From: Sharpea porci
GTDB lineage: Bacteria; Bacillota_I; Bacilli_A; Erysipelotrichales; Coprobacillaceae
Reading direction: 5' to 3'
DNA length: 41,440 nucleotides
NCBI RefSeq assembly: GCF_009695655.1
Contig: NZ_VUNM01000024.1
Span: 1-41,440, forward strand
Position numbers and translations under genes: made by a program. Each line of letters begins with the position of its first letter. Position 1 is the first letter of the stretch. Of the stretch, positions 4,437 through 20,605 are shown one piece after another. Under the pieces are notes generated by a model. That model was not told the DNA's origin. It made no database searches and saw only the letters and a program-made list of their open reading frames with translations.

Positions 4437-4748
4437 CTAGTGTCTTTTATTATAAATGCATTTCACAAGTAAAGCGCCTAGAAATACAGTGAAATATGGA
4501 ATCAACAACAAGATACCATAGAGTACTGTAAATAGAGAACCTCCCATATATGGATAAAGCGTAGTGATAAGATAACCGCCTCTTATCACTCCATAGATAA
4601 CACATATAATAATAAAATAGTTTACATATTTAGGAAACTTTATACATAAAATATATGTCACTATACATGCAATGATGATCCATGGGATTTGTTTAATGAA
4701 AAGATCAAGCATATTACCGGCAATCCACGATGCAATAAATTGAGTCAT
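4437..4748 (-). CDS. Small hydrophobic membrane protein, unknown function
   Basis: The product is about 103 residues with three or four hydrophobic segments (WIIIACIVTYILCI, YFIIICVIYGVI, LFTVLYGILLLIPYFTVFLGALLV) and a basic tail (KCIYNKRH). I do not recognise the family. I start it at the second ATG (4746-4748), which is seven bases after AAGG; an ATG two codons upstream is equally possible. A promoter-like sequence lies about 100 bp upstream, and a broken microgene follows. The window gives no function; a toxin-like or transport-accessory role would be a guess. Confidence 0.55.
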   Translation of the reverse strand: MTQFIASWIAGNMLDLFIKQIPWIIIACIVTYILCIKFPKYVNYFIIICVIYGVIRGGYLITTLYPYMGGSLFTVLYGILLLIPYFTVFLGALLVKCIYNKRH

Positions 4749-4856
4749 AATCATACCTTCCCTTCTATTCAGTTATATTTGATTTTATATAAACATAAGA
4801 ACCACATCCATCCTCTTATCAATCCCCTGTTGTATAAAAGATGCCTCTTCTACTAT

Positions 4857-4980: not shown

Positions 4981-6516
4981 TTATTCATCATCGACAACAT
5001 CATTGTTGTAGTTTTCAAGATCAGTAATAAGATTCTTATATACTGAATCGATGGATTCACTAAAGGCTGCATCCTTCATATTATTTTTGAGGGCACGACT
5101 AGATTTCATTGTATCCTGCAAAGTACCTGCACCACCAATACAGCCACCTGGACAAGCCATCCCTTCCAACAAGTAACCATCATATTTACCACGTGTCGCA
5201 TCACGCATCATACGTTTACATTCAGCCAAGCCTTCTGCTTTAACGACTTTCACTTCACGTTCTGGATCAAGATGCTTTACGGCATTGACAACAGCCTGGG
5301 CAACCCCACCGCTACCGGCAAAGCCACGACCATCGCTTGAGCCTTGGACAAGCTTGAAGCCATCTGGGATTTCATCAAAATCAACATCCTTTGCTTCAAA
5401 CATGCCAGCGACTTCTTCAAATGTCAATGTGAAGTCGACATATGATTTAATGGAATTGCGCGCTGCTTCTTTCTTTTTCGCTAAGCATGGACCAATGAAA
5501 CAGATCTTCGCATTAGGTTCATTCTGTTTTAAAAGACGCGCTGTTAAGACCATTGGTGTTAAGGCCATGGAAATGTTTTCGGCATAATCAGGGAAATCCT
5601 GTTTAGCCATCTTAGACCATGCTGGGCAACATGATGTGCCCATGAATTTAAGCTTTGATGGAACTTCATCAATGAAGTCCTGGGCTTCTTCGATTGTACA
5701 TAAGTCAGCACCCATCGCTACTTCAAGAACATCCGTAAAGCCTAAAGCCTGGAAAGCTCCACGCATTTTCTCCGGTGTTAAGTTTGGCCCAAACTGACCA
5801 GCAATTGCTGGTGCAACAATCGCATAGACATTCTCTTTATTTGTGATGGCTTTGATTGTTTGATAAATCTGTCCCTTGTCGACAATAGCCGCAAATGGAC
5901 AGCTTACTAAGCACATCCCACAAGCCACACATTTACTCTGATCAATATCAGCACGACCATATTCATCTTTGCCAATGGCATTGACACCACATGCGGCAAC
6001 ACATGGACGCTCCTGCTTGATGATGGCATTGTATGGACAAGCTTTCATACAAAGTCCACATTTAATACATTTAGACTGATCAATATAAGACTTGCCATCC
6101 ACCATCGAAATAGCCCCTTTAGGACAAACTTCCTGACAGGGATGTTCAAGACATCCCTGACAACAATCTGTGACAATGACACGTTTCTCTGGACATTTGT
6201 GACAGGCAAATTTAATGATATCAATAAGTGGTGGTTCATAGTATTTTTCATCAATCATACTTTCATCCACACCATCACTAATCGATTTATATTCACTAAT
6301 AGGACGTAGTGAGAGTCCCATCGCAACACGTAAACGTTCCGAAACAATCGCTCTTTCGACAAAGATACTATCACGATAGGTTTCTATTTCCCCGGGAATA
6401 ATCTTATAGGGAAGTTCTTCGAGCTTTTCAGGTCCGCCGCCTTCATAAGCTAAACGCGCTATTTCTGTAAAAATCATATGACGAATTTTGGATTTTGGGG
6501 TTGGTACACCTTTCAT
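4981..6516 (-). CDS. hydA: [FeFe] hydrogenase, group B type
   Basis: This 511-residue iron hydrogenase interconverts protons and H2, probably with ferredoxin. The N-terminal ~110 residues are cysteine-rich (FACHKC...DCCQGCLEHPCQEVC). Two [4Fe-4S] ferredoxin motifs follow (CIKCGLCMKACPYNA and CVACGMCLVSCPFAA). The H-cluster motifs are complete: TSCCPAW, GPCLAKK (L2) and EGMACPGGCIGGAG (L3). The GPCLAKK and GGAG variants and the N-terminal pattern are those of group B hydrogenases rather than the classical group A. I prefer the ATG at 6514-6516; a GTG two codons upstream is closer to GGAGG and is the alternative. It is separated from hydE by a terminator and has its own TATAAT, so it is independently transcribed just downstream of the maturation operon it probably depends on. 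Confidence 0.93.
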   Translation of the reverse strand: MKGVPTPKSKIRHMIFTEIARLAYEGGGPEKLEELPYKIIPGEIETYRDSIFVERAIVSERLRVAMGLSLRPISEYKSISDGVDESMIDEKYYEPPLIDIIKFACHKCPEKRVIVTDCCQGCLEHPCQEVCPKGAISMVDGKSYIDQSKCIKCGLCMKACPYNAIIKQERPCVAACGVNAIGKDEYGRADIDQSKCVACGMCLVSCPFAAIVDKGQIYQTIKAITNKENVYAIVAPAIAGQFGPNLTPEKMRGAFQALGFTDVLEVAMGADLCTIEEAQDFIDEVPSKLKFMGTSCCPAWSKMAKQDFPDYAENISMALTPMVLTARLLKQNEPNAKICFIGPCLAKKKEAARNSIKSYVDFTLTFEEVAGMFEAKDVDFDEIPDGFKLVQGSSDGRGFAGSGGVAQAVVNAVKHLDPEREVKVVKAEGLAECKRMMRDATRGKYDGYLLEGMACPGGCIGGAGTLQDTMKSSRALKNNMKDAAFSESIDSVYKNLITDLENYNNDVVDDE

Positions 6517-6564
6517 ACACACATTTCCTCCTCAATTTGTAACCCTTTTCTTTTAGTTAAAGAT

Positions 6565-6600
6565 ATTATAACACAAGTCATTCGTTTAGCACGTCCTAAT
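6565..6600 (-). promoter_or_regulatory. Putative promoter of the group B-type hydrogenase gene
   Basis: A perfect TATAAT (plus attata 6565-6570) lies about 50 bases before the start. Where a -35 box should be is TTAGGACGTGCTAA (plus 6586-6599), which resembles TTAGGCGTGTTAA at the same place before the nifH-like operon. A shared activator site is possible. Confidence 0.6.
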
Positions 6601-6616
6601 CTTGTGAATATCAAAA

Positions 6617-6638
6617 AAGAAGTGATCATTCACTTCTT
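6617..6638 (-). terminator. Terminator of the nif-like/hyp/hydFE operon
   Basis: AAGAAGTGA, loop ATGA, TCACTTCTT form a perfect 9-bp stem followed by TTTTTT on the minus strand, directly after the hydE stop. It separates the long operon from the downstream hydrogenase gene. Confidence 0.92.
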
Positions 6639-7679
6639 CTAACGATAATCTCCTCGTGCTTCAACAACTTCATAGCCCGTGCGTTTAATTCTTCTTTCCA
6701 TACAGGCATGACATTCAGCCGCTTCCTCACCTGTACAGATCTTGCCATCATAAAGCATATACTTGCTTCTGACACCACGTGGTGACAAATTAGGCATAAC
6801 AACATTAGCTCCGGCAAGAAGTCCCTTTTCTCTGCCTAGAGGATCAATTGTGCCAAGTGCTGTTGTTGCTGGAAGCAGGCAATGGGGTAGCATCAAGCGA
6901 ATGATGCCTAATAAATGCAAGGTATCTTCAAGTGTTCCTCGTGGTTCATCTTTAAATGGTGTATCGGCATGAGGAATAAAGGGACCAATCCCAACCATGT
7001 GGGGATTGAAGTCTTTCATATAGATAAGATCTTCAATAATATGATCATAAGTCTGTCCCGGTGTACCTACCATAATTCCACATCCCACCTGATAACCAAT
7101 ATCCTTTAAATCTTGCAGGCATTGTTTGCGATGGGCAATCGATAATTCTTTAGGATGAAGCTGACGATAGTGCTCAGGATTGCTTGTTTCCTGGCGTAAG
7201 AGATAACGTTCTGCCCCAGCTTCAAAGTATTTGCGGTAGGAGTCCTTCTCTTTTTCGCCAATTGAAAGCGTAATGGCCATATCGGGATGAAGAGCTTTGA
7301 TGGCTTTGACAATCTCACAAATCATCTCATCACTAAACCACATATCTTCGCCACTTTGTAGGACGACTGTACGAAAGCCTAGCTGATAGCCTTTCTCTGC
7401 ACAGGCAACAATATCACCTGGGGTCAAGCGATAACGTTCAGCCTTTAAGTTATCTTTGCGTATCCCACAATAGAAACAATTATTCTTGCAGTAATTGCTG
7501 AACTCAATCAGACCTCGCAAATAAACATCTTTGCCATAAACCTCTTCACGCACGGCACAGGCATTCTTATAAAGATAATCTTCATCTTCCTTCGTCAAAG
7601 AAGTTAATAATTGTTTGTAACCATCATGATCTAAGTGTTGGGATTGTCTTAAGAGATCAATAAGTTCTTTATTATTCAT
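6639..7679 (-). CDS. hydE: [FeFe] hydrogenase H-cluster radical SAM maturase HydE
   Basis: HydE is the radical-SAM enzyme that processes the iron-CO-CN-cysteine synthon on the way to the azadithiolate-bridged diiron unit. The radical-SAM cluster motif is C64-K-N-N-C68-F-Y-C71, inside EFSNYCKNNCFYCGIRKDN. Further family features are VVLQSGED, LRQETSNPEHYRQLHP, GIMVGTPGQT, GIGPFIPH and the C-terminal ANVVMPNLSP. With 346 residues it has HydE length; HydG and ThiH are longer and HydG has an extra C-terminal cluster domain, absent here. I start at the ATG 7677-7679, eight bases after AAGGA, overlapping hydF by 8 bp; a second ATG lies two codons upstream. It is the last gene of the 11-gene operon. 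BioB or PylB are the main alternatives, less likely given hydF next door. Confidence 0.95.
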   Translation of the reverse strand: MNNKELIDLLRQSQHLDHDGYKQLLTSLTKEDEDYLYKNACAVREEVYGKDVYLRGLIEFSNYCKNNCFYCGIRKDNLKAERYRLTPGDIVACAEKGYQLGFRTVVLQSGEDMWFSDEMICEIVKAIKALHPDMAITLSIGEKEKDSYRKYFEAGAERYLLRQETSNPEHYRQLHPKELSIAHRKQCLQDLKDIGYQVGCGIMVGTPGQTYDHIIEDLIYMKDFNPHMVGIGPFIPHADTPFKDEPRGTLEDTLHLLGIIRLMLPHCLLPATTALGTIDPLGREKGLLAGANVVMPNLSPRGVRSKYMLYDGKICTGEEAAECHACMERRIKRTGYEVVEARGDYR

Positions 7680-8859
7680 TGTCATTATCCTTAATAATCT
7701 GCATTGAACGATCAAGAATTCCATTCATATAGGCAATAGCCATACCATAATTGGTGATTGGCACACCTTGTTTAACAGCTTCTTCCATGCGATGAACTAC
7801 TTCTCTTTCGTTCAACATACAGCCACCACAATGAATAATCATTTTATAGGCAGATAAGTCACTTGGGAAGCTAAAGCCTGAACTTGTTTCAATAATGAGA
7901 TCTTTTCCTGTGTAGTTTTTAAGCCAGTTCGGGATTTTCACCGTTCCTATATCCTTGCATGTACGATGATGTGTACAGCCTTCACTAATCAAGACATGGT
8001 CTCCATCCTGAAGCTGATCGATGGACTTAATGCCATGATATGTGACATGAAGAGCCCCTTTATAGCGGGCCATGAGAATGGAAAATGATGTCAATGGGAT
8101 ATCATCTGGGACAACTTTAGATACATAGGCAAAGGCTTGTGAATCTGTAATGACAAGAGCTGGCTTTTCAATTTTCTTTAATGTCTTTTCTAGCTCACTC
8201 TCCCGACAAACAACAGGAATATCACCATCATCAAGTAAATCACGAATAACTTGTTGTTGTGGGAGAATTAAGCGTCCTTTAGGTGCTGAAGCATCAATTG
8301 GAATCACCAATACGACTATTGAACCGGATGGTACTAAGTCATGAGCTAGTGCTCGTTGATCTTTTTCTGGTTTGAGTGAAGCAATTTTATCTTTGAGTTC
8401 CTTGATATGTTCTTTTGTCTTTGAAGAGACATAAATCGTATCCTTTGTTTCTTTGTCAAAATGACTGAGATCGCATTTATTATAGACAACAAGATAAGGA
8501 ATATGGAGACTCTTAATGAGCTCTAAGACCTCCTCATCAACTTCATCCATGCCTTCTTGTCGATCGATCACTAATAAAGCGATATCCGTCTTATGCAGCA
8601 TCTTCTTGGCTTTTTCTACACGTTTTTCACCAAGTTCACCCGTATCATCAAGACCAGCTGTGTCAATAAAGACAACAGGTCCTAAAGGCAAGAGCTCCAT
8701 AGCTTTCATAACAGGATCGGTTGTTGTGCCTTTCATATTGGAGACAATGGCTAAGTCCTGGTTCGTAATGGCATTAATTAGGGATGACTTCCCGGCATTA
8801 CGCTTACCAAAAAGACCAATATGAATACGTTCACTTGAAGGTGTACTATTTAAACTCAT
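7672..8859 (-). CDS. hydF: [FeFe] hydrogenase maturation GTPase/scaffold HydF
   Basis: HydF is the cytoplasmic GTPase and scaffold on which the diiron subcluster is carried before transfer to apo-HydA. Residues 10-170 are an Era/TrmE-like GTPase: GKRNAGKSS (18-26), GTTTDPV, DTAGLDD, NKCD. A dimerisation region follows, then the C-terminal cluster domain with CTHHRTC (295-301) and HCGGC (343-347), the family's [4Fe-4S] ligand pattern. At 395 residues it has normal length. GGGGGG lies seven bases before the ATG. It overlaps the upstream nifK-like 2 gene by 14 bp and hydE by 8 bp. The tight coupling to nitrogenase-like and hyp genes, rather than to hydG, is the notable point. Confidence 0.95.
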   Translation of the reverse strand: MSLNSTPSSERIHIGLFGKRNAGKSSLINAITNQDLAIVSNMKGTTTDPVMKAMELLPLGPVVFIDTAGLDDTGELGEKRVEKAKKMLHKTDIALLVIDRQEGMDEVDEEVLELIKSLHIPYLVVYNKCDLSHFDKETKDTIYVSSKTKEHIKELKDKIASLKPEKDQRALAHDLVPSGSIVVLVIPIDASAPKGRLILPQQQVIRDLLDDGDIPVVCRESELEKTLKKIEKPALVITDSQAFAYVSKVVPDDIPLTSFSILMARYKGALHVTYHGIKSIDQLQDGDHVLISEGCTHHRTCKDIGTVKIPNWLKNYTGKDLIIETSSGFSFPSDLSAYKMIIHCGGCMLNEREVVHRMEEAVKQGVPITNYGMAIAYMNGILDRSMQIIKDNDNE

Positions 8860-9955
8860 CTAAAATCCCCCCTTTTAAGATATTGGGCATGTTTTTAAGA
8901 TAAAGACGTCCACTAAAAGCCAAATGTGGTAGTGCTCTAACAGGTGTTGAAGTAAGAGCTTGATACATTGGATCACCAATAATTGTTTGTGCCTTTCTTA
9001 GTGCCTGTTCGATTTCTTCTTCATCTTTACTCGCAAGATCCCTTGTTCTTATTATACGCTTAGATTCTTCTAAAGGGGTAATCATTTTATACGATGTGTA
9101 TAGAGCATTGCCTAAAGAATGACCAATAATGGCATCACCAATAATGATATGTTCATCACTCACTTCTTTATTAAGAAGAGGATTTTGTGACTTTCCTGTT
9201 GTCATTGCTTCTTCGATAGCTTTAAAGAGTACATTCTTAAAATCACCTATCGGACTCCCTAAGACATAGGGAATATGATATGTTCTTTCAAAGTATTGAG
9301 CTAAGCGCAATCCTGATGAAGATACAACAACATTGACATGGGCTGATGCAGCTCTTTGAAGTTCTTTTAAGCTTGTATCCCTTGCCCAGATAGAGAGCAC
9401 TTCATAATCATGAAAGATGTCTTTAAGAAGAGTTGTTGTCTCACGAGGGGTATAGTCCAAAGGGGTAACACCTAGAATATTGATAGCTTTCTTTGTAGGA
9501 GCATAGTTTTCAAAAGGCAAGCGTGAAGCAAGTGCTTTAAAGGCTAAGGCAATACCATGGGTATAATCATGCATGGCATTAGTGGGAATATAGAAAGCTG
9601 GTATATCAAGAATCTCTTCAAGCTTCTTGCAGATGGCACTAAAGTCTGTCGCATTGAGATAGGGAATGGGTGAGTTAGCTAAGGCAATAAAGTTTGGATG
9701 CTGATCTAAGGCAACCTGGACAATATCATCAATAAATTTAGCATCATTGCCCATAATGGCATCGGATTCCTTTAAGCCAGATATATATATACGTGATGCA
9801 TTCTGATACCAGCGCACTTCATCATGGGTATTGTAGGTCGAATTACATCCACTTGGATCATGAATGACAATAAGCCCTCCTAACTCATAAAGGGCAGAAG
9901 CAACACCGGATATATCCCCTGTATAAACAGGCAAACGGTTATAGACACATCTCAT
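8846..9955 (-). CDS. Nitrogenase component 1-like protein, NifK-like subunit 2
   Basis: About 369 residues of the nitrogenase/BchNB/CfbD oxidoreductase superfamily. It is a clear paralogue of the product of 15772-16731: both share S-x-LYELGGL, a Gly-Cys (C37), DE-x-RW, GL-x(3)-DAI-x-G-x-D, NFIAL or its equivalent, TD-x(3)-IC, PT near residue 140 and ILGVTPLD. Only one cysteine (C37 in HDPSGC) occupies a nitrogenase-type cluster position; the place where NifK has its third cysteine reads ANSPIPYLNATD. It is probably the partner of the preceding nifD-like 2 product and may act as a scaffold (NifN-like) rather than a reductase. I start at the ATG overlapping the upstream stop (ATGA, 9952-9955); a GTG three codons upstream is the alternative. 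It directly precedes hydF with a 14-bp overlap. Confidence 0.82.
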   Translation of the reverse strand: MRCVYNRLPVYTGDISGVASALYELGGLIVIHDPSGCNSTYNTHDEVRWYQNASRIYISGLKESDAIMGNDAKFIDDIVQVALDQHPNFIALANSPIPYLNATDFSAICKKLEEILDIPAFYIPTNAMHDYTHGIALAFKALASRLPFENYAPTKKAINILGVTPLDYTPRETTTLLKDIFHDYEVLSIWARDTSLKELQRAASAHVNVVVSSSGLRLAQYFERTYHIPYVLGSPIGDFKNVLFKAIEEAMTTGKSQNPLLNKEVSDEHIIIGDAIIGHSLGNALYTSYKMITPLEESKRIIRTRDLASKDEEEIEQALRKAQTIIGDPMYQALTSTPVRALPHLAFSGRLYLKNMPNILKGGILDEFK

Positions 9956-11238
9956 AATAAACACTCACATCCTAATCCTTTTTGTGGCACAATGAGGGCA
10001 GGATCTTTTGTAGTATAATACGCTTCTTCAATGGCCTTAAGCATACTTAATAAGCCACGATAGCCAAAGAATCCTCCTCCTTCAATGATATTCACAAAAT
10101 GTTTCGTATTCTCAAAATAGGCAGCTTTAGGACCAATAGCTAAACTCTCCCCCTCACCCATTTCAAAACGCATATTCGCATGAATAGTAGGAATGAGCTC
10201 TAAGTCTGGAAACTGTTTTTGAAGAAAGAGAAAGTCTTCTTTTTCTTCAGGAAAGATGGTATCAAGATAGACACATTTCACATGAAAGCCATGTTCTAAA
10301 AGAACACGGGCAAGATTAAGTGGCCGCGGTGTTGCCACAAAGTCAATCGCAATCACTTTCTCTCCAATGACTTGCTTTAAATGGCTGAAGGCTTCTTCAC
10401 ATGCCTCTCTTCTTTTGTGATGATCAACATGTGAAATATTGAGCTCATCACAAAAACAATCAATTTCATCTTGAATCGACTCATAATCAAAACAAGGAGA
10501 GAGATAGAGATAATGGGCGTTCAATCTTTTTGATAAGGCTTGAATACCATAATCACCAGCTGGATTTGTACAAATATGCATTTTCGCATGACCTAAATTC
10601 AAGAAATCCTGATAGTTCATATCTTGAAGCTGATGTACTTTCATTTGATGATCTGTAGCTATTGCGACAAGATCACTTGTTTCATAAGTATGGGTTACTT
10701 CCAAGCCAAGTAACGCGATTGAATCATCCTGTGCTAAAGGCTGAATACTGTCATACATGACTTTACGTAGTCTTTGATCAGGGGCAAGACCTTCTTTTTG
10801 GGAGAGTGGATCCATATAGGCCTCGACAAAGACAACTGTTGGAAAAGTAGCTCTGAGTTTCTTATAGACATAATTTAAGTCAACCGAAAGAAATTTATGA
10901 AGGCAGACTGGAAAGATGATGGCGACTGGTGGTAAGTGTTGGCGTTTGTTTAAGGCATAGGTGATGGTTTCAATCATCTGATCTTCTAAATGTCCATCAA
11001 AAATATCACGTTCTTCGATCGTAATGCCAATAAAACGATCCATCGCATTCATTTCCGCAGCAGTCATCACAACCCCACGCAAACAATTATCAGCACAGAT
11101 ATAGATCTGTATGCTTTCAGGCACCTGCATACCAATATGAACAATATTCCATGTTTCATGAACAGGCGGATTAAATTCTAAACCAATGGTAAAGGGATTA
11201 GGATATTGTGCCTGAGAAATAGGCAAGGACATTTTCAT
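9952..11238 (-). CDS. Nitrogenase component 1-like protein, NifD-like subunit 2
   Basis: About 428 residues. It is paralogous to the product of 16728-17993: VPESIQIYICADNC aligns with [28 protein letters not shown] aligns with [14 protein letters not shown], and AIGPKAAYFENTKHFVNI...FFGYRG aligns with [18 protein letters not shown]...PYGYQG. It therefore has fewer cluster-type cysteines (about C48, C52, C112) than its paralogue, and the CxxC of the CITC motif is reduced to one Cys. It also has a long unique middle part and a C-terminal GLGCECLL. By analogy with NifE versus NifD it could be a scaffold. I start at the ATG 11236-11238, five bases after AGGGAGAG, rather than at an ATG six codons upstream. 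It follows hypE by 11 bp. The cofactor and substrate are unknown. Confidence 0.8.
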   Translation of the reverse strand: MKMSLPISQAQYPNPFTIGLEFNPPVHETWNIVHIGMQVPESIQIYICADNCLRGVVMTAAEMNAMDRFIGITIEERDIFDGHLEDQMIETITYALNKRQHLPPVAIIFPVCLHKFLSVDLNYVYKKLRATFPTVVFVEAYMDPLSQKEGLAPDQRLRKVMYDSIQPLAQDDSIALLGLEVTHTYETSDLVAIATDHQMKVHQLQDMNYQDFLNLGHAKMHICTNPAGDYGIQALSKRLNAHYLYLSPCFDYESIQDEIDCFCDELNISHVDHHKRREACEEAFSHLKQVIGEKVIAIDFVATPRPLNLARVLLEHGFHVKCVYLDTIFPEEKEDFLFLQKQFPDLELIPTIHANMRFEMGEGESLAIGPKAAYFENTKHFVNIIEGGGFFGYRGLLSMLKAIEEAYYTTKDPALIVPQKGLGCECLL

Positions 11239-11249
11239 ACAATCTCTCC

Positions 11250-12251
11250 CTAACATATTCTAGGCAAGAGTTCGTTGCCCGGTGGAGGCAAGAGTGTCTC
11301 ACTGCCGATTTCTGTAGTGATCGTGACATGACCCGGATGTTCATCAGTGACATAGCCAATCAGTGCAGCCTTTTCTGTATGCTTGCATTGATGGAGAATT
11401 GCCAATGTCTGATCAGCTTTGTCGCCAGGAACGACAATCACCATGCGTCCTTCACAAGCTAAATAGAGAGGATCAAGGCCAAGCATACCTGTGACACCTC
11501 TGACTTCTTTGGCAACAGGAATATTCTTGTTTTCAAGCTTGATTCCAACATTGGCTTCTCTAGCGATTTCATAAAGCACTGTGCCAACACCACCTCTTGT
11601 GGCATCACGAATGACATGGACATCTTTGACTTTTTCTGTCAAGGCATCAACGGCATTCCATAAAGGTGCGCAATCACTGCTCACATTGGCCTCAATACCA
11701 TAATCATCACGCTCTAAAAGTATGCATGTGCCATGTCTGCCAATATCACCAGTGACAATAATCGCATCACCAGCCTTCGCATAAGCGCCTGATGTCTTAA
11801 TGCCTTCCTTAATAGCCCCAACACCGGTTGTTGTAATAAAGACCTGGTCAACCTGGCCTTTTCCTGCTACCTTTGTATCTCCTGCTACAATCTTGACACC
11901 AACTTCTTTCGCACACTTTTCCATTGAAGCCACAATCTCTTCAAGTTTGTTCATATCAAAGCCCTCTTCAATCACAAAGGCACATGTCATATAGAGTGGC
12001 TTAGCGCCCATGCAGGCTAAGTCATTGACTGTACCACAGATGGAAAGCTTGCCAATATTTCCCCCATTAAAGAATGGTGGAGAAACAATAAATCCATCCG
12101 TACTCATTGCCAATGTTGTTTGTGGATTGGGCAATACGGATGCATCATCCGCTGTAAAATATTCATTATTGAGATGATGCTTAAAAACCTTATCAATAAG
12201 TTCAGCTGTCGCCTGACCTCCTGAACCATGTGCTAATGTTACTTTTTCCAT
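11250..12251 (-). CDS. hypE: Hydrogenase maturation protein HypE (carbamoyl dehydratase)
   Basis: HypE receives a carbamoyl group from HypF on its C-terminal cysteine and dehydrates it with ATP to a thiocyanate, the source of the CN ligands. The 333-residue protein shows the PurM/SelD-like fold motifs (LAHGSGGQAT, FTADDASVLP, AMSTDGFIVSPPFF, GTVNDLACMGAKPLYM, VAGDTKVAGKG, RDATRGGVGTVL) and ends in the essential PRIC tail, so it should be active. The true start is the ATG 12249-12251, nine bases after GGAGG, overlapping hypD by 13 bp; the longer frame has no such site. Its presence without HypA, HypB or any [NiFe] hydrogenase gene here suggests that the cyanide is used for an iron-only cofactor. 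Confidence 0.96.
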   Translation of the reverse strand: MEKVTLAHGSGGQATAELIDKVFKHHLNNEYFTADDASVLPNPQTTLAMSTDGFIVSPPFFNGGNIGKLSICGTVNDLACMGAKPLYMTCAFVIEEGFDMNKLEEIVASMEKCAKEVGVKIVAGDTKVAGKGQVDQVFITTTGVGAIKEGIKTSGAYAKAGDAIIVTGDIGRHGTCILLERDDYGIEANVSSDCAPLWNAVDALTEKVKDVHVIRDATRGGVGTVLYEIAREANVGIKLENKNIPVAKEVRGVTGMLGLDPLYLACEGRMVIVVPGDKADQTLAILHQCKHTEKAALIGYVTDEHPGHVTITTEIGSETLLPPPGNELLPRIC

Positions 12252-13288
12252 TCCTTTAATCCTCCATAGAGATAATATGCCGAACAAGTGCCTTCGCTAG
12301 AAACCATGCAAGCACCGATCGGATGATCCGGTGTACAGCCCTTACCAAAGACTGGACAATCATATGGCTTACATGCCCCACGTAGTACCTCACCACAACG
12401 ACAGGCTGGATTGTCCTTTCCTTTAATGACAGGTAGATCATAAACTTTACGTGCATCGTAAGCTTTGTAGGCTTCTTTAAGCTGTAAGCCGGAATGGGCA
12501 ATCTTGCCAATCCCACGCCATGAAGCATCACATGGTTCCATATAAGTTTTAATAATATCTTGAGCTTTTTTTGAGCCTTCGCTTTTGACAACACGAGGAT
12601 AGGCATTCACAAAGAACGGTTTTCCCTGCTGGACTTTTTTGACAATGATGGCAATCGCTGTAAGTAATTCACTAGCTGTAAAGCCTGCCACGACACCGCT
12701 CACACCATCCTTGTCTCTAAGCTCTTCACAGATCTTTGTGCCAATAATCGCATGAACATGACCAGGATAGAGAAAGGCATCACAGGAATCTTTCATTGCT
12801 TCATAAGCCATCGGCATCGTCTTATTGGCTGTCAATAATGAGAAATTGGTGAGATTTTTTGCTTCCTTGATAGTTAGCACATCACTTGGAGTTGTTGTTT
12901 CAAAGCCAATGGATAAGAAAACAACCTGTTCATCCTGATGCTTTTTCGCATATTCAACCCCGTCAAGAGGTGAGTAGACAACCTTGACCTTAGCGCCTCT
13001 AGCTCGAGCCTGAGCTAATGAAAGTTTTGTCCCTGGTACACGTACTAAATCACCAAATGTCGTAATCGTACAGCCCTTCTCAAGTGCCAACATCACCGCT
13101 TCATCAATAAAATCAATGGGTGTCACACAAACAGGACAGCCTGGACCAGAAATAAGATCAATGGTATCAGGAAGAATGTTGCGAATACCAAGCTTAAAGA
13201 TTTCATGTGTATGTGTCCCACATACTTCCATAATACGTATTTGAGATCCCTGATAGCTTTGAATAATCTCTAATGCTTCCTTATTCAC
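12239..13288 (-). CDS. hypD: Hydrogenase maturation protein HypD
   Basis: HypD, with HypC, holds the iron atom on which the Fe(CN)2CO group is assembled. The 349-residue protein contains the family's key motifs in order: MEVCGTHTH (C23), GPGCPVC (C51, C54), GFETTTP, YPGHVHAIIG, GVVAGFT and the C-terminal [4Fe-4S] region CRCGEVLRG...C...C...GACMVSSEGTCSAYY. All catalytic and cluster cysteines appear intact. It overlaps hypC by 8 bp and hypE by 13 bp, so the three are made together. Nothing suggests decay. Confidence 0.97.
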   Translation of the reverse strand: MNKEALEIIQSYQGSQIRIMEVCGTHTHEIFKLGIRNILPDTIDLISGPGCPVCVTPIDFIDEAVMLALEKGCTITTFGDLVRVPGTKLSLAQARARGAKVKVVYSPLDGVEYAKKHQDEQVVFLSIGFETTTPSDVLTIKEAKNLTNFSLLTANKTMPMAYEAMKDSCDAFLYPGHVHAIIGTKICEELRDKDGVSGVVAGFTASELLTAIAIIVKKVQQGKPFFVNAYPRVVKSEGSKKAQDIIKTYMEPCDASWRGIGKIAHSGLQLKEAYKAYDARKVYDLPVIKGKDNPACRCGEVLRGACKPYDCPVFGKGCTPDHPIGACMVSSEGTCSAYYLYGGLKEWKK

Positions 13289-13496
13289 CTAACAGTTCCT
13301 CCATTAAATTCTTTGATTCATTTTCGTCATCATCAGTAATCTTGGCAATCGCTGCTCCTGCATGCACCATGACATAATCACCTGGCTTTAAATCATCCAA
13401 AAGTTCGGCTGAAACAGAACGTTTTGCCCCTGTTGCATCAACAATCGCAACATCACCTTTCATCTGAATAACTTTTGCGCTAATACCTACACACAT
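13281..13496 (-). CDS. hypC: Hydrogenase maturation chaperone HypC/HybG
   Basis: This 71-residue small chaperone forms the Fe(CN)2CO-carrying complex with HypD. The N-terminal Cys2 (MCVGISAKVI) needed for iron binding is present, as is the OB-fold sequence GDYVMVHAGAAIAKI; the acidic tail (DDDENESKNLMEELLGE) is normal. In known systems HypC then docks on the [NiFe] large subunit. None is in this window, so what it delivers iron to is the open question; a nitrogenase-like protein or HydF are candidates by proximity. It lies 5 bp after hypF and overlaps hypD. Confidence 0.95.
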   Translation of the reverse strand: MCVGISAKVIQMKGDVAIVDATGAKRSVSAELLDDLKPGDYVMVHAGAAIAKITDDDENESKNLMEELLGE

Positions 13497-13501
13497 ATTG
13501 A

Positions 13502-15775
13502 TTACCTCTTTTCTTTTTCAAAAAGACGACTCGCATAGAGAGCCTGTCCCACACATAGACCACCATCATTAGGTGGAATCAAGTGATGTCTGATCACTTG
13601 GAGATTTTTTTCTTTTAAGCCTTTTTCACATAGCTCTAGTAATAATGTATTTTGGAAAACACCGCCACTTAAAGCTACTGTCTCAATTCCAGTTTCTTGA
13701 TGTACTCTACTCACACTCTCAACAATCATATGGGCAAGTTCTTGATGAAAATAATAAGCAAGATCAGCGACATTTTCATGACGCAGTCTTCTTTCCACAA
13801 TATCTTTGACAAGCTGATTAGTTGGAAGGATGTTTGATTGTGAAGATGTCCAGTTCTTTGTCTTGATGACATGCTGAGCTTTAGCAGCTTCATATTGTAA
13901 TCGTGTCGCTGCTTCACCTTCAAAAGAAGATGTGAGTGTTAAGTTCAAAATAGCACTAACCCCATCAAATAAACGACCAGCACTTGTCGATTTGATGGCA
14001 TTTAATTGTTTATCATGCATGACTTTTAAGACATGGGCATTTTGTTTGTCACAAAGGGCTAACTGGGCAATCACATCTTCGCCATCCTCAAAGAGATCAT
14101 AGATCATTGAAGCGGCAATACGCCATCCTTCCTTAGCAGACAAGTCACCACCAATCTGCAAGAAAGGCGCAATACTTGCCTCACGCTTAAACCCGTCCAA
14201 GTCACAGACAAGAATCTCTCCACCCCATATCGAACCATCTAGCCCATAACCTGTTCCATCAAAGGACACACCAATAACTTGATCATGCCAGTCATTTTCC
14301 GCCATGCAGGAAAGAATATGAGCATAATGATGTTGAATGCCCACACTTCTGATACCCATCTCTTTAGCAACCATGGTCGCATTATAGCGGGGATGAAGGT
14401 CATGACAGACAATTTGTGGCTCCACTTCTAAAAGCGAAGACATCAGCTTCAATGATTCCTTGAGTGCTTCAACACTACGAATATCCCCTAAATCACCAAT
14501 ATAGGCTGAAGGATAGAATAAGTTATCACGACCAATACAGAATGTATTCTTCAACTCCCCACCAATCCCAATCACATGTCCCTGATAGGGATGTGTTGTC
14601 ATAATCGGTAAAGGGGCATATCCCCTTGAACGCCTGATCATATAAGGCTCGCCTTGATAGAAATCCACAACACTATCATCACAACGTACACGTATTTTAC
14701 GATTATGGGAGAGAATGGCATCACATAGCCCAACAAGTTCTTTACGGGCACCTTCTTCATCACGGGTAATGGGTGCTCCTGAATCGTTAGCACTTGTCAT
14801 CACTAAGACATCGGGCATCTTTATGCCATCATCATAATCAAAAAGCAACATCTGTAATGGCGCATAAGGTAACATGATGCCAATCTTAGGATTATCCGGC
14901 GCAACACTATTGGCAATATGGCCCGCTTTTTTAGGCAGGAGAATGATGGGCTTCTGATGTCCTGTCAGTAAATCTCTCACTATTTCATTTTCCACCATGC
15001 ATTCACGTTCTACGACAGCCATATCTTTAGCCATGACCGCGAAGGGCTTGAAAGGACGATGCTTGCGCTCACGCAATCTTCTGACAGCTTCTTCATTTGT
15101 CGCATCAACCGCAAGATGATAACCACCAATACCTTTCACAGCCACAATCTTGCCATCATGTAACAATTGTCGTACACGACTGATGGCTTCATGGCCCTTG
15201 ATATCTTCATCTAGTAAATAGACTTCAGGCCCGCAATCATTGCAGCAGACTGGCTGGGCATCATAACGTCGGCTTACAGGATCATGATATTCCTTTTCAC
15301 AAGCTGGACACATTGGAAATTCTTTCATGCTGGTACGTTCTCGATCATAGGGCAAGCCTTCAAGAATCGTTAAACGAGGACCGCATGATGTACAGTTAAT
15401 GAAGGGATGAAGATAACGACGATTACTTGGATCATAGAGTTCCTTTCGGCAAGTTTCACATGTGGCAATATCGGGAGAGATGAAGATTTCTCCCTTGGTC
15501 TTTTCACTTTGGATAATTTGAAAGTCTTCGAAGATTGGGGCAATGACTTTCTGACTTGTGATTTTGAGAATTGTTGAACGCTGGGGAGGCTTTTTTTCTA
15601 GAAGTTCCTTGAAATGAGCAACCTGTTCTTCACTCCCCTGAGCATAGATTTCAACATAGGGGCCTTTATTCGATACTGTGCCTTTGATTTGACACGTTGA
15701 AGCATGTCTGGCAACAGTTGGACGAAAGCCAACACCCTGAACAATGCCAAAGACTCGTAAACATTCTGTTGTCAT
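13502..15775 (-). CDS. hypF: Carbamoyltransferase HypF
   Basis: HypF uses carbamoyl phosphate and ATP to carbamoylate HypE, the first step of cyanide-ligand synthesis. All four modules are visible in 757 residues: an acylphosphatase domain (VFGIVQGVGFRPTVARHA, 1-90), two zinc-finger pairs (CETCRKEL...CTSCGPRL and CPACEKEY...CCNDCGPEV, ~105-185), a YrdC-like nucleotide domain (KGIGGYHLAVDATNEEAV, ~200-390) and a Kae1-like carbamoyltransferase domain (QHHYAHILSCMAEN, GVSFDGTGYG, LSGGVFQN). The length is normal. It shares an ATGA overlap with the upstream nifK-like 1 gene, tying hyp and nif-like translation together. Confidence 0.97.
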   Translation of the reverse strand: MTTECLRVFGIVQGVGFRPTVARHASTCQIKGTVSNKGPYVEIYAQGSEEQVAHFKELLEKKPPQRSTILKITSQKVIAPIFEDFQIIQSEKTKGEIFISPDIATCETCRKELYDPSNRRYLHPFINCTSCGPRLTILEGLPYDRERTSMKEFPMCPACEKEYHDPVSRRYDAQPVCCNDCGPEVYLLDEDIKGHEAISRVRQLLHDGKIVAVKGIGGYHLAVDATNEEAVRRLRERKHRPFKPFAVMAKDMAVVERECMVENEIVRDLLTGHQKPIILLPKKAGHIANSVAPDNPKIGIMLPYAPLQMLLFDYDDGIKMPDVLVMTSANDSGAPITRDEEGARKELVGLCDAILSHNRKIRVRCDDSVVDFYQGEPYMIRRSRGYAPLPIMTTHPYQGHVIGIGGELKNTFCIGRDNLFYPSAYIGDLGDIRSVEALKESLKLMSSLLEVEPQIVCHDLHPRYNATMVAKEMGIRSVGIQHHYAHILSCMAENDWHDQVIGVSFDGTGYGLDGSIWGGEILVCDLDGFKREASIAPFLQIGGDLSAKEGWRIAASMIYDLFEDGEDVIAQLALCDKQNAHVLKVMHDKQLNAIKSTSAGRLFDGVSAILNLTLTSSFEGEAATRLQYEAAKAQHVIKTKNWTSSQSNILPTNQLVKDIVERRLRHENVADLAYYFHQELAHMIVESVSRVHQETGIETVALSGGVFQNTLLLELCEKGLKEKNLQVIRHHLIPPNDGGLCVGQALYASRLFEKEKR

Positions 15776-16731
15776 GAAAAATCACGCCTTCCTGATACCG
15801 CAAAATGAGTCATTTCAAGATATTGCCCGTGGTAGTCTTGAAGCATGTCCTTGAAAACAGGATCACCAATAATCAAATCATAATCATTCTTTTTTACAAG
15901 TTCAATCAAATCGTCTTCCTCAATAAGATGGACATCACCCTTTTCTCTTAAGGTTGGCTTCATCATAAAGAATGAAGCAATATCAAAAGGAATAGAGAGC
16001 TGTTGTCTTAGTGTATGACCAATAACCTGCTGGCCAATAAAAAGAATATGATGTGCATCATGAATATCAATAGACAATCCAGGAATACCAACTTCATAAT
16101 CAATATGATAACGACGCTGTAGTCGTTTGGCGACTTTCAAGGCAGCTGGTGTTGCTACATAAAGCTTTTTTAATGAACCAACAGTATCAAAATCTTCAAA
16201 CTGATTGAAGGTAGGCATAGAGAATGTTTGTGAAAAATCTAAAGGAGTAACTCCAAGAATTGCTTCTGTCTGCTTTGTCGGTTTATTATTCGCAAATTTA
16301 TCGAATAAAGCCAAGTAAGCCATCTCCATGCCTTCATCATATAAGCCTACGCCCGTTGTCGGAACATAGATGACAGGTTTATGTATTTTCTTCTCAAGAA
16401 TATGACAAATTCCCTGATAGTCGGTTGCGATGACCGCAGGTACCGGTGTTCCCACTAAGGCAATAAAGTTAGCCGAAAATTCATCACTTATATCAACAAT
16501 CTTCTCAATCAAAGCATCATCCCTGCCAAGAATCGCATCCATATCACGTAGTCCTGCCGAGAAGATGGCTGAACGTTGATCGAACCAACGTGGCTCATCA
16601 AACCCGCAGACATTACCTGTACAGCCACCAGCATCAATAATAATCGTCAGACCACCAAGCTCATAAAGCACACTGACAGCACCTGATTGGTCGGGGGCAA
16701 AGGGAGTCAAATATTTTCTAAGTCCTTTCAT
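15772..16731 (-). CDS. Nitrogenase component 1-like protein, NifK-like subunit 1
   Basis: About 319 residues of the nitrogenase component 1 / protochlorophyllide reductase superfamily, shorter than NifK (~500). The N-terminus PFAPDQSGAVSVLYELGG is a superfamily signature. The cluster-type cysteine is C37 in DAGGC, with C42 close by (TGNVCGFDEPRW). The site of the third NifK cysteine reads GTPVPAVIATD, so it has no Cys there. It is paralogous to 8846-9955. By gene order its partners are the nifD-like 1 and nifH-like products, making a three-part reductase like BchLNB or CfbCD. I start at the ATG 16729-16731, six bases after TTGGAGG and overlapping the previous stop (ATGA); the longer frame lacks a ribosome site. 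The substrate is unknown. Confidence 0.85.
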   Translation of the reverse strand: MKGLRKYLTPFAPDQSGAVSVLYELGGLTIIIDAGGCTGNVCGFDEPRWFDQRSAIFSAGLRDMDAILGRDDALIEKIVDISDEFSANFIALVGTPVPAVIATDYQGICHILEKKIHKPVIYVPTTGVGLYDEGMEMAYLALFDKFANNKPTKQTEAILGVTPLDFSQTFSMPTFNQFEDFDTVGSLKKLYVATPAALKVAKRLQRRYHIDYEVGIPGLSIDIHDAHHILFIGQQVIGHTLRQQLSIPFDIASFFMMKPTLREKGDVHLIEEDDLIELVKKNDYDLIIGDPVFKDMLQDYHGQYLEMTHFAVSGRRDFS

Positions 16732-17993
16732 AGTACGCCTCCAATCTTTGTACATAGGTCAATTACACCTTGATAGCCATAGGGCTGAAGATCTTCGTTG
16801 AAGAAGACATGCTTGGCATGAGGATGGTAGTAAGCTGCATCTTTGCCTAATGTGATATCAACAGTGATATCGGACATATCATAATAAAGCATGCTTGGCT
16901 CATTATTGCAGTAGATTCTTGTATCCGGCGAGATCTTCGCAATCTCTTTCATATAATAGGTTGCATGTGTGCCATATGTGGCATATATAGCTGAAACATG
17001 GAATCCTTGTTTCAACAAAGCATAAGCAAGTTCAAAGCTATCGGCATTAAGGGTTTCACCAATCGCAAAATGTAATGTATGAGGTAAGCTATTATAGGCT
17101 TGAAGGGCATTTTGGTAATCCGGCTGGTCATCGATTTCTTTTTGAAAGACCTTGAAGAAAGCTTGATATTGTCGGTGGATGCTTTCTAGATCATAGAAGC
17201 GTGAGAGTTCAATAGAGCCAATGCCTAAACGTTCTTCTAAATCACTTGCCGCGGCGCGTGCTTCAGGATGAAGAATGAGATTGAAATTGGCAGCAGCCAT
17301 TTCTTCAAATTCTTCATAATATTGCATTCTCGAAATTTCATTAATTTTTGTCAGACCGAGTTGTCTTAAATAGCGATAAAGCTCACTTTGATCATTTAAT
17401 GGCGCAAAGAAGCCTAGTAAATTCACATGACGTGCATAGCGCTTTTTCTTTTCTAATAAAGAATAGATGGACTCTCTGACATGAACCATTGGTGGTTTTC
17501 GACCTTCTCTTGTCAAAGCATACATATAACAAGGCTTGACTTTCACGCCAGGTACCTGTTCTTCACATTTTCGGCATACTCTTTCCATATCCGTTCCTAG
17601 AAGCGCATCAACACAGGTAATACAAATCATCACAACTTTAGGCTTGACTGCAAGACTTTCAACAACTTCCTTGACAGCCTGGGGAATATGGGCAAGATGC
17701 CGTCCTGTGACGATATCCGTTTCATCCATCAGATAATAGAAATAGCGATGTTGATAATGATCATTTGTCGTAATAGCGGACGTATTGCGCCCACAGCATC
17801 CTGGGGAAACAATCAGCATCACACTTTCAGGAACACTCAGTCCTGCACGCTTGACACCAAAGCCCTGGGCACCTGGGGAATTATAGGCTAATGTGGCTGG
17901 TGAGGAATAGATAAGATGATGATTGGTTTGGAAGATTTCTGGGATATCTTGTCTATCCGCAAGCTCACTGGCTTTAAAATATTTAGCTTTCAT
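16728..17993 (-). CDS. Nitrogenase component 1-like protein, NifD-like subunit 1
   Basis: 421 residues with nitrogenase component 1 features: [18 protein letters not shown] (C66, C67), corresponding to the first P-cluster region of NifD, and [16 protein letters not shown] (C124, C127), corresponding to the C...GDD region. Further cysteines follow at C140, C143 and C155. The NifD FeMo-cofactor surroundings are not convincingly present, so nitrogen fixation is not expected; the C-terminal [13 protein letters not shown] might hold cofactor ligands. It overlaps the nifH-like gene by 11 bp and the nifK-like gene by 4 bp. I infer an ATP-driven reductase together with those two. Its job may be to make or reduce an iron-based cofactor, given hyp and hydEF in the same operon. 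Confidence 0.85.
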
Positions 17994-18735
17994 CTTCCAA
18001 CAACTTCTTTGCCAGTTCTAGAAATTTCTGACTCACTTCAAGATTGATATCCCCTTCAATCGTTGTCATGCCCATTTCTTCATAACGATTGATATCATTA
18101 CTGCGTGGAATGTCCCCAATAATCTTTAAATCATGTTCTTTCGCAAAAGCTTCCACCTTTTCTGTTTCATTTTCGACATTACGATGATTCAACAAGATAC
18201 CCTTAACCTGCGCATAGCCTCGATCAGCAAAATTCTTGACCGCACTTTGGATATTATTAGCGGCATAAAGAGCCATCTTTTCGCCACTAGTAACAATGAT
18301 GACATCTTTCGCATAACCTTCTCTAATAGGTGCCGCAAAACCACCACAGACCACATCACCCAAGACATCATACATCACCACATCAGGTTGATATTCTTCA
18401 AACAAATCCAAGTCTTCCAACAAATTAAAAGTGGCAATAATGCCCCTTCCAGCACAACCAAGTCCTGGTGTTGGTCCTCCTGTTTCAATACATAAAATAT
18501 TGCCAAATCCCACTTTAGAGATTTCTTCAATCGATTGTGGTTCCTGATCTTCACGCAAATATTCCATAACGGGCTTTAATGGCTCGCCATGAAGCAGACT
18601 GATGGTCGAATCAGCTTTAGGATCACAGCCAATCTGAATCACTCTTTTGCCCAGTGTTGCGAATGCGGCAGACAAGTGACTTGTCATGGTTGATTTACCG
18701 ATACCACCTTTGCCATAAATAGCGATTTTCAGCAT
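17983..18735 (-). CDS. Nitrogenase iron protein-like ATPase (NifH/BchL/CfbC family)
   Basis: A 250-residue dimeric [4Fe-4S] ATPase that would donate electrons to a NifDK-like partner. It has the P-loop GKGGIGKST (8-16), CDPKADST, the two cluster cysteines C94 ([14 protein letters not shown]) and C130 ([19 protein letters not shown]), and [14 protein letters not shown]. All residues needed for ATP-coupled electron transfer are present. At 250 residues it is shorter than true NifH (~290), as in nitrogenase-like proteins. It is the first gene of the 11-gene operon, with a strong ribosome site (AAGGAAGGAG) and a TATAAT upstream. Nitrogenase iron proteins can also reduce CO2 to CO in vitro, a possible source of CO ligands here; that is speculation. 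Confidence 0.93.
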
Positions 18736-18776
18736 AGTGACAACTCCTTCCTTGATGCTTTTTTGTAAGCTTTTTC

Positions 18777-18811
18777 ATTATACCATACTCTTTTCTCATT
18801 AACACGCCTAA
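18777..18811 (-). promoter_or_regulatory. Promoter of the nifH-like/hyp/hydFE operon
   Basis: A perfect TATAAT (plus attata 18777-18782) lies 41 bases before the nifH-like start, just after the terminator of the preceding operon. The -35 region is weak; TTAGGCGTGTTAA (plus 18799-18811) is there instead and has a near match before the group B-type hydrogenase gene, suggesting activator control. Confidence 0.7.
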
Positions 18812-18825
18812 CACCTCAAAAGAAA

Positions 18826-18854
18826 AAGTCAAAGAAACATTGCTTCTTTGACTT
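18826..18854 (-). terminator. Terminator of the flavoprotein-hydrogenase operon
   Basis: AAGTCAAAGAA, loop GCAATGT, TTCTTTGACTT: a perfect 11-bp stem followed on the minus strand by TTTCTTTT. It separates hydA from the nifH-like operon. Confidence 0.92.
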
Positions 18855-18862
18855 AGAAAAAC

Positions 18863-20605
18863 TTATTTCTCACCAGGCATTTTCCAGGCATGATGATCAG
18901 TATGTAATAAGTGATGGGCTTTTTCACTATTAGGCTGGCCTAAGAATTCTTGATAAACCTCTTTGATGGATGGATTTTCATGGGAGAAACGAATGACATT
19001 CTTGGCATCCTGACGATAGAGGACATCAGCACGTTCTGGTGCTTCAAACTTACCATCATGAATAGGCTGACCGCCACCACCAACACATCCACCAGGGCAA
19101 GCCATAACTTCGACAAAGTCATATTGCACCTTTCCAGCTTTAAGCGCATCAAGCAGTCTTGAGGCATTGCCTAAGCCATTAGCGACAGCTACTTTGACAC
19201 TTATGCCTTCGATATCGAAGATTTCTTCTTTCCAGCCTTCCATGCCACGTACTTCTTTGAAGGCATCAGGATCAGGATTATGACCAGTCGCAAAATGATA
19301 GGCTGTACGTAAAGCAGCTTCCATCACACCACCTGTTGCCCCAAAGATATTACCAGCTCCAGAACCAAGTCCTAAAGGCATATCCAGGGCACGTTCCTTG
19401 ATTTCACTAGGAATGATATAGGCACGGCGAATCATCCGGTTCACTTCTCTTGTCGTTAAGACAACATCAACATCAGGATCACCACAGGCATCATTCATAA
19501 CTGGAATATCACATTCCTGCTTTTTCGCAAGACAAGGCATGATGGAAACACTATAGATATTTTCAGGATCCACCTGCAATAGCTTTGCATAATAAGACTT
19601 CGCAATTGCCCCAAACATCTGCTGCGGTGATTTGGAAGTTGAAAGCTGGTCGACAAATTCTGGATAGTGAGCCTTCACAAAGCGTACCCAGCCAGGACAA
19701 CATGAAGTAAACATTGGGAATTGATGATCAGCAGGATGTTGTAAGTGATCTAAAAATTCACTAGCTTCTTCCATAATCGTCAGATCGGCAGAAAAGTCTG
19801 TATCTAGAATAAAATCAAAGCCAATCATATGCAAGGCTTCAGCTAAGCGTTCCACCGTCGCAACCTCAGGTGATAAACCAAATTCTTCACCCCAGGCTGT
19901 ACGAATAGATGGCGCAATTTGGGCAATAACAACCTTCTTTGGATCATCAATAGCTTCATAAACACGATCTGTGTCATCACGCTCATGTAAAGCATTCACC
20001 GGACAATGGGTAATACACTGACCACATAGTGCACATTTAGAATCTTCAAGCGAATAGACATCACGCACATCTACGGTTGTTCGTGAACCCGTATTGACAA
20101 CATCCCAGATATGAGAATTCTGAATCTTGTCACAAACCTGAATACAACGCATACATTTTATACATTTTCTATAATCACGAATGAGCGGGAAGTTGGGATT
20201 ACCCTTTTGTGCAGGGATGTCTTTTTCATAAGGGCTATCCATAATGCCTAAGTCATTGGCCACTTTCTGAAGTGAACAGTTGCCCGAACGTGTACACATT
20301 GTACAGTTGGCATAATGCTGGGAGAGAATGAGCTGCACATTGACAATACGTGCTTCTCGAACTTTTTTCGAATTCGTCCAGATCACCATGCCTTCATCAA
20401 CAGTATTATTGCAGGCAGTAAAGAGGCGTTCATAGCCTTCTACCTCAACAACACAGACACGGCATGCGCCGATTTCATTAAGCCCCTTCCAATAACAAAG
20501 AGTAGGAATCTGAATTCCTGCCATCTTGGCAGCATCTAAGATTGTCGTTCTTTCTGGCACATGATAACTATGGCCATCAATCCATATTCTTACATTATTT
20601 ACCAT
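18863..20605 (-). CDS. hydA: [FeFe] hydrogenase catalytic subunit, group A (modular)
   Basis: A 580-residue hydrogenase with the modular order of clostridial enzymes. It has an N-terminal [2Fe-2S] domain (C37, C48, C51, C65), a His-ligated [4Fe-4S] cluster (H97, C101, C104, C110), two ferredoxin-type [4Fe-4S] clusters (CIKCMRCIQVC and CALCGQCITHC), and the H-cluster domain with TSCCPGW, MPCLAKK and MACPGGCVGGGGQP. All H-cluster ligands are present. It overlaps the upstream flavoprotein gene by 7 bp, so the two surely form a complex that links H2 to a nicotinamide or flavin pool. A Rex-like site in the operon promoter fits NADH/NAD control. It needs HydE/F-type maturation, encoded next door. 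Confidence 0.96.
   Translation of the reverse strand: MVNNVRIWIDGHSYHVPERTTILDAAKMAGIQIPTLCYWKGLNEIGACRVCVVEVEGYERLFTACNNTVDEGMVIWTNSKKVREARIVNVQLILSQHYANCTMCTRSGNCSLQKVANDLGIMDSPYEKDIPAQKGNPNFPLIRDYRKCIKCMRCIQVCDKIQNSHIWDVVNTGSRTTVDVRDVYSLEDSKCALCGQCITHCPVNALHERDDTDRVYEAIDDPKKVVIAQIAPSIRTAWGEEFGLSPEVATVERLAEALHMIGFDFILDTDFSADLTIMEEASEFLDHLQHPADHQFPMFTSCCPGWVRFVKAHYPEFVDQLSTSKSPQQMFGAIAKSYYAKLLQVDPENIYSVSIMPCLAKKQECDIPVMNDACGDPDVDVVLTTREVNRMIRRAYIIPSEIKERALDMPLGLGSGAGNIFGATGGVMEAALRTAYHFATGHNPDPDAFKEVRGMEGWKEEIFDIEGISVKVAVANGLGNASRLLDALKAGKVQYDFVEVMACPGGCVGGGGQPIHDGKFEAPERADVLYRQDAKNVIRFSHENPSIKEVYQEFLGQPNSEKAHHLLHTDHHAWKMPGEK

Follow-up and report, generated by a model that had tools for sequence, protein, structure and literature searches.

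[FeFe] hydrogenases, which are among biology's most efficient hydrogen catalysts, are matured by HydE, HydF and HydG, and in this pathway the tyrosine-cleaving HydG is the source of the CO and cyanide of the H-cluster. [NiFe] hydrogenases are matured by HypABCDEF, and the nitrogenase cofactor is assembled by NifEN and NifH, with NifE being the scaffold where the cofactor is finished. Here we describe an operon of Sharpea porci in which hypCDEF and nitrogenase-like genes lie between the genes of two [FeFe] hydrogenases. The window, i.e. the whole stretch of 41,440 nucleotides that was analyzed, is a complete contig (G000:C17) of a 2.5 Mb genome with a completeness of 99.36%. The operon spans positions 4981-22431 and comprises 14 genes on the minus strand, as are all window features given below, with neighbors often overlapping or only a few bases apart. 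The order of transcription is HydB-like flavoprotein, group A [FeFe] hydrogenase, NifH-like protein, A1, A2, hypF, hypC, hypD, hypE, B1, B2, hydF, hydE and group B1 [FeFe] hydrogenase, where A1/A2 and B1/B2 are the subunits of two nitrogenase-like modules, A and B. We propose, at a probability of roughly 0.8, that this is an operon for HydG-free maturation of [FeFe] hydrogenases, in which HypCDEF together with the NifH-like protein and the nitrogenase-like scaffolds would make the unit that is passed to HydE and HydF.

The operon resembles the HydEFG system in that HydE, HydF and both HydA proteins keep their key motifs, so that the HydE and HydF required for this type of maturation are in place, and a TM1266-type regulator is common in its relatives. 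HydE (6639-7724) is a radical S-adenosylmethionine maturase with the motif CKNNCFYC (TIGR03956, 558.2 bits), and HydF (7672-8859) is a GTPase scaffold with the C-terminal motif CTH...HCGGC (TIGR03918, 562.8 bits). Both hydrogenases score above their cut-offs: the monomeric group B1 enzyme (4981-6522; TIGR04105, 620.5 bits) has intact H-cluster motifs, and in the A6-like group A enzyme (18863-20605; TIGR02512, 480.8 bits) the motifs TSCCP, MPCLAKKQE and EVMACPGGC are unbroken. The electron partner of the group A enzyme is the HydB-like, NAD(P)-linked flavoprotein of 610 residues (20599-22431), which combines a NuoF-type iron-sulfur region with a pyridine nucleotide oxidoreductase and whose gene overlaps that of the hydrogenase by 7 bases. 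Unlike the HydEFG system, however, the Sharpea operon lacks HydG and has other genes in its place. HydG was not found anywhere in the S. porci genome, where its profile (cut-off 312 bits) matched HydE alone, with a score of 80. The absence of this key gene was overlooked in the original prediction on this DNA, which had concentrated on the hyp genes, and it changes the question from what hypCDEF do without nickel to what replaces HydG.

The absence of HydG follows the presence of the nitrogenase-like modules in related bacteria. Among 196 genomes sampled from the order, 29 encoded HydF above the cut-off; HydG was present in 16 of these and HypD in 6, and no genome had both. Nitrogenase-like proteins (PF00148 above cut-off) were found in 0 of the 16 genomes with HydG vs 12 of the 13 without it (Fisher p=2.5e-7). 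An assembly gap was rejected as the general cause of HydG's absence, as some HydG-less genomes are single contigs; one of them, an operon-bearing genome of 3.2 Mb (G011), makes a gap unlikely. Two further loci of the sample (L024 and L023, in G020 and G125) encode a divergent HydG adjoining HydF, scoring 536-601 bits vs about 900 in most genomes; together with further unidentified genes, these loci may be another variant of the pathway.

When GTDB genomes were scanned with the B1 alignment, 545 loci were found, of which 80 were kept, from Sharpea, Blautia, Roseburia, Coprococcus, Eubacterium ramulus, Pseudoramibacter, Saccharofermentans, Olsenella and others; tests for HydG and for PF00374, the profile of the [NiFe] large subunit, covered 50 of the 80 loci. 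The locus nearest to the window's among those fetched was that of Sharpea azabuensis DSM 18934 (L026), with operon proteins 88-99% identical. The commonest gene order was nifH-A1-A2-hypF-hypC-hypD-hypE-TM1266-(nifH)-B1-B2-hydF-hydE, in which TM1266 is described in Pfam as a putative regulator of the iron-only hydrogenase system. By automatic tally, 68 of the 80 loci were hyp-type, 8 had Fec-type transporter genes, none had both and 4 had neither; TM1266 was present in 62 of the 68 hyp-type loci, and module A accompanied the hyp genes wherever the locus was long enough to tell. HydG was absent from 48 of the 50 B1-bearing genomes, the two exceptions (G232 and G234) are not hyp-type, and no hyp-type genome in either sample contained it. 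A divergent HydG was considered for 14 of the 48 genomes, which gave HydG matches of 178-206 bits. The one tested against NCBIfam (L106) proved to be ThiH (524 bits), and all of these matches stop at profile positions 372-401 of 470, short of the C-terminal part; based on the tested case and on where the matches end, we take all 14 to be ThiH.

The same exclusion was seen in an independent group, 250 genomes sampled from the Coprococcus comes family. HydF was present in 138 of them, 108 of which also had HydG, and module A or B occurred in 1 of the 108 genomes with HydG vs 22 of the 30 without (p=7e-18). The module-less, HydG-less genomes of this family (G256, G292, G293, G359, G367, G372, G386 and G423) may either be incomplete or have a further route, and G293 has a weaker B1-like protein at 308 bits. 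Since the genomes are related, a simple exact test makes the evidence look stronger than it is. When the HydG label was placed on a quick maximum-likelihood tree of 80 HydF proteins, it required 16 changes, with at least 8 of them forced by well-supported branches. Among 8 independent pairs of contrasting HydG status, the contrast in the modules was opposite to that in HydG in about 6 and parallel to it in none (median p 0.031, range 0.016-0.125). Thus, the exclusion is a repeated one, though its significance after correction is modest.

The two modules resemble NifEN/NifH cofactor assembly, with a NifH-like ATPase and two paralogous pairs of subunits. The NifH-like protein (17983-18735; PF00142, 295 bits) keeps the P-loop GKGGIGKS and the cluster cysteines. 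Module A consists of A1 (16728-17993; 421 residues, NifE/NifD-like; PF00148, 115.6 bits) and A2 (15772-16755; 327 residues; PF00148, 49.8 bits), the latter with the motif GGCTGNVCGFDEPRW in the alignment. Module B consists of B1 (9952-11256; 434 residues), which matches PF00148 weakly, and B2 (8846-9964; 372 residues; PF00148, 84.1 bits), which has an invariant SGCNSTY; A1, A2 and B2 are above the PF00148 cut-off. A1 and B1 are homologous to NifD/NifE, their best sequence matches among solved structures include NifE, and their AlphaFold models (predicted local distance difference test scores of 77.9 for A1 and 79.3 for B1) predict a nitrogenase fold and match structures of the nitrogenase superfamily throughout. 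With an Oxidored_nitro fold and a NifH-type ATPase, the set belongs to the nitrogenase superfamily in the broad sense. The alignments contain three invariant cysteines in B1 (54, 58 and 118), one in B2, four in A1 and two in A2, which would suit a bridging iron-sulfur cluster. Unlike in NifEN/NifH assembly, no role in nitrogen fixation is implied: equivalents of NifD Cys275 and His442, the ligands of the iron-molybdenum cofactor, are not conserved, with no invariant cysteine in the C-terminal half of the alignments of B1 and A1, and the NifH-like protein scores 307.7 bits with TIGR01287, under the cut-off of 394.35 for nitrogenase iron proteins. The modules thus lack features of an N2-reducing nitrogenase, and for A1A2 and B1B2 with the NifH-like protein we infer a role in ATP-driven reductive assembly.

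The likeness to [NiFe] hydrogenase maturation is in the hyp genes, which the original prediction had described as complete and intact. Indeed, HypF (13502-15775; TIGR00143, 760.6 bits), HypC (13281-13496; TIGR00074, 65.6 bits), HypD (12239-13288; TIGR00075, 391.9 bits) and HypE (11250-12287; TIGR02124, 420.4 bits) are all above their NCBIfam cut-offs and keep their catalytic residues. The carbamoyltransferase HypF has all of its domains (two zinc fingers, acylphosphatase, YrdC and Kae1-like), HypC starts with Met-Cys, the scaffold HypD has CGTH and GPGCPVC, and HypE ends in PRIC. Because all key residues are kept, we assume from the chemistry of [NiFe] maturation that HypC and HypD would carry an Fe(CN)x(CO) unit in S. 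porci as well. Other features set the locus apart from the HypABCDEF system: the genome has no [NiFe] hydrogenase, its HypA and HypB are unlinked to the operon, and the hyp genes stand among [FeFe] hydrogenase and nitrogenase-like genes in one operon.

The absence of HypA and HypB, also part of the original prediction, held for the window genes examined and for the window only. A genome-wide search for HypB identified two tandem copies on contig C29 (254 and 237 bits, cut-off 121), with HypA identified beside them (PF01155, 118 bits). In this cluster (L111:9869-16231) they are accompanied by a 925-residue iron-sulfur flavoprotein of the flavin adenine dinucleotide (FAD)/NAD type, a GntR regulator and a DUF5692 membrane protein but not by a hydrogenase, and a Blautia genome (L114) holds a similar cluster with one HypB. 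The claim that a [NiFe] large subunit is missing was borne out, both among the window genes examined and across the whole genome, where PF00374 had no match. The scan of window genes did not reveal a large-subunit endopeptidase, which was not searched for genome-wide. A nickel-free target was to be refuted if hypA, hypB and a [NiFe] hydrogenase turned up elsewhere in the genome; of these, hypA and hypB were found and the hydrogenase was not, and the reading stands. A hidden [NiFe] hydrogenase was rejected as an explanation, given that PF00374 found nothing in this genome and that, among the 50 B1-bearing genomes, it was absent from 46 and matched in 4 at 51-56 bits. The one of the four that was examined (L109:1015-2888, in G227) is an Ech/NuoD-like large subunit with HypA adjoining, in a genome that also has a hyp-type operon and lacks HydG. 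As these four genomes have a PF00374 protein, HypCDEF may serve both kinds of hydrogenase in them.

Comparative evidence therefore best supports an iron-cyanide-CO group for a nickel-free target, as had been predicted, and because this genome and nearly all operon-bearing relatives lack HydG, the best-supported candidate for this target is the H-cluster of the [FeFe] hydrogenases of the same operon. HypF and HypE would make cyanide from carbamoyl phosphate, as is established for [NiFe] maturation, and HypC and HypD would hold the Fe(CN)x(CO) unit. The NifH-like protein and the scaffolds A1A2 and B1B2 could then use ATP-driven reduction to supply or rearrange ligands, making the iron unit acceptable to HydE as a substrate, after which HydE and HydF would finish the H-cluster as in the standard pathway. 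Our guess is that module A may either provide CO, with CO2 as one possible source, or reduce the unit, and that module B, the core common to both variants, hyp and Fec, may turn the unit into a form that HydE accepts.

In the Fec variant, genes for a FecB/FecC/FecD-type transporter replace hypCDEF beside module B, HydF and HydE (loci L017, L018, L019, L020, L021, L022, L066, L088, L093, L098 and L105). Genus g27 includes seven HydF-bearing genomes with neither HydG nor HypD. In all six of the g27 loci examined, FecB/FecC/FecD-type ATP-binding cassette transporter genes adjoin HydF, and module B is also there in five (G187, G149, G142, G146 and G164; the sixth is G102). The FecB-like proteins begin with lipoprotein-like signal sequences, and the transporter may import an iron-CO-CN precursor. 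The iron-ligand unit would thus come either from HypCDEF and module A or, as a guess, from a Fec/Btu-type importer that brings in the unit or an equivalent. More tentatively, and with some doubt on our part, nitrogenase-like, ATP-driven scaffolds could rework an iron-cyanide-CO unit, whether made by HypCDEF or imported by a FecBCD/BtuCDF-type transporter, so that nature would have a second way to the H-cluster.

The genes present, their intact motifs, their conserved linkage and the mutual exclusion of the modules and HydG were observed directly. Several points weigh against HydG-free maturation as proposed here. Every chemical step, biochemistry included, is one that we infer. HypCD normally yields Fe(CN)2(CO), whereas HydE normally takes Fe(CO)2(CN)(Cys), and the stoichiometry therefore requires an extra step at which we can only guess. 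HypA and HypB exist in the S. porci genome, and a PF00374 protein occurs in 4 of the 50 genomes, the one examined being Ech-type. In the order sample, G102 has HydF but neither HydG nor a nitrogenase-like match, and the Fec-type genomes lack HypD, so that HypCDEF does not accompany the module everywhere. In the Coprococcus comes family, eight genomes with HydF but no HydG, possibly incomplete, have neither module; the HydF tree behind the pair test is a quick one; and the Blautia strains in the physiology papers cited below may differ from those sequenced.

The nitrogenase-like complexes could themselves be the target, with HypCDEF building an Fe-CN-CO cofactor for them, their substrate unassigned, and the H-cluster ligands coming from elsewhere. 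This would fit the linkage of the modules to hyp in most loci (68 of 80 being hyp-type) and the location of HydF or HydE elsewhere in some genomes (HydF of G108; Blautia loci). However, such a cofactor leaves unexplained why it is precisely the genomes with the modules that lack HydG, repeatedly and in independent lineages, why a TM1266 regulator is present, and why, in the Fec variant, module B adjoins HydF although no hyp genes are there, and we consider it unlikely. The modules might also belong to some other metal or cofactor pathway, e.g. in tetrapyrrole or sulfur metabolism, and lie beside hydrogenase genes by chance: DPOR, CfbCD and methylthio-alkane reductase are known nitrogenase-like enzymes and the fold is common to all of them. 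The specific exclusion of HydG and the linkage to HydE, HydF and TM1266 across orders make such a coincidence highly improbable.

HypCDEF could instead act with the HypA and HypB of the other contig on an unrecognized nickel enzyme. HypA and two HypB proteins are indeed encoded in the genome, and HypB is above cut-off in 10 of 40 hyp-type genomes; yet it is not above cut-off in the other 30, the HypA/HypB cluster is without a hydrogenase and unlinked to hypCDEF, and PF00374 is absent here and from 46 of 50 relatives, which leaves a nickel enzyme very unlikely. Finally, the hydrogenases might be matured poorly from free CO and cyanide through HydE and HydF, with the hyp genes as incidental passengers. 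HydF made with HydE and without HydG does activate HydA to about 1% in vitro (PMC9431212). In contrast, B. schinkii is reported with high hydrogenase activity, cited at about 23,000 mU/mg, and Blautia luti produces H2, with an H2:viologen activity of about 20 to 640 mU/mg in extracts (PMC12773636); the genomes of both species (L052 and L072, respectively) have a hyp-type operon and lack HydG and PF00374, which also speaks for the HydG-free route. Furthermore, the hyp and module genes are intact and their order is conserved across many genera, so that we see hardly any chance of their being passengers.

Parts of this gene set have been noticed before. In one sentence, Dos Santos et al. 2012 (PMC3464626) pointed out that NifHEN-like genes accompany genes for hydrogenase maturation in Coprococcus catus and other Firmicutes, and suggested that they might help to assemble the active-site metallocluster; these are probably the same genes as our modules, and that sentence does not remark on the absence of HydG, HypCDEF as its replacement or an importer variant. 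For Clostridium acetogens that encode HydE/HydF and HypCDEF, a failure to detect HydG or HypAB in several has also been described, and was explained by a divergent HydG or by free CO and cyanide rather than by HypCDEF and nitrogenase-like proteins (PMC9431212). In the open-licence literature we found no paper describing HypCDEF maturing an [FeFe] hydrogenase or replacing HydG.

Two other window features lie outside the operon. Positions 697-2184 encode a 495-residue protein with a SagB glucosaminidase-like stretch (82.9 bits, below cut-off) and no Pfam match, and a 105-residue open reading frame past the second [FeFe] hydrogenase (4437-4754), with no match in NCBIfam or Pfam, may not be a gene.

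Altogether, the comparison of genomes points to an unrecognized second route to the H-cluster in the many gut bacteria that lack HydG and carry the Hyp and nitrogenase-like gene set. If this is true, two maturation systems that have been held separate have parts in common, and a nitrogenase-like family of unassigned function gains a role. The pathway would offer an entry to the question of where anaerobes obtain the CO of the Fe(CN)2(CO) unit, as well as a new toolkit for producing active hydrogenase, and, should the import reading be true, an organometallic iron-CO-CN compound would be a nutrient common to gut bacteria. If HypCDEF and the nitrogenase-like proteins do the work of HydG in Blautia, Roseburia, Coprococcus, Eubacterium and Sharpea, much of the hydrogen metabolism of gut and rumen rests on an unstudied pathway.

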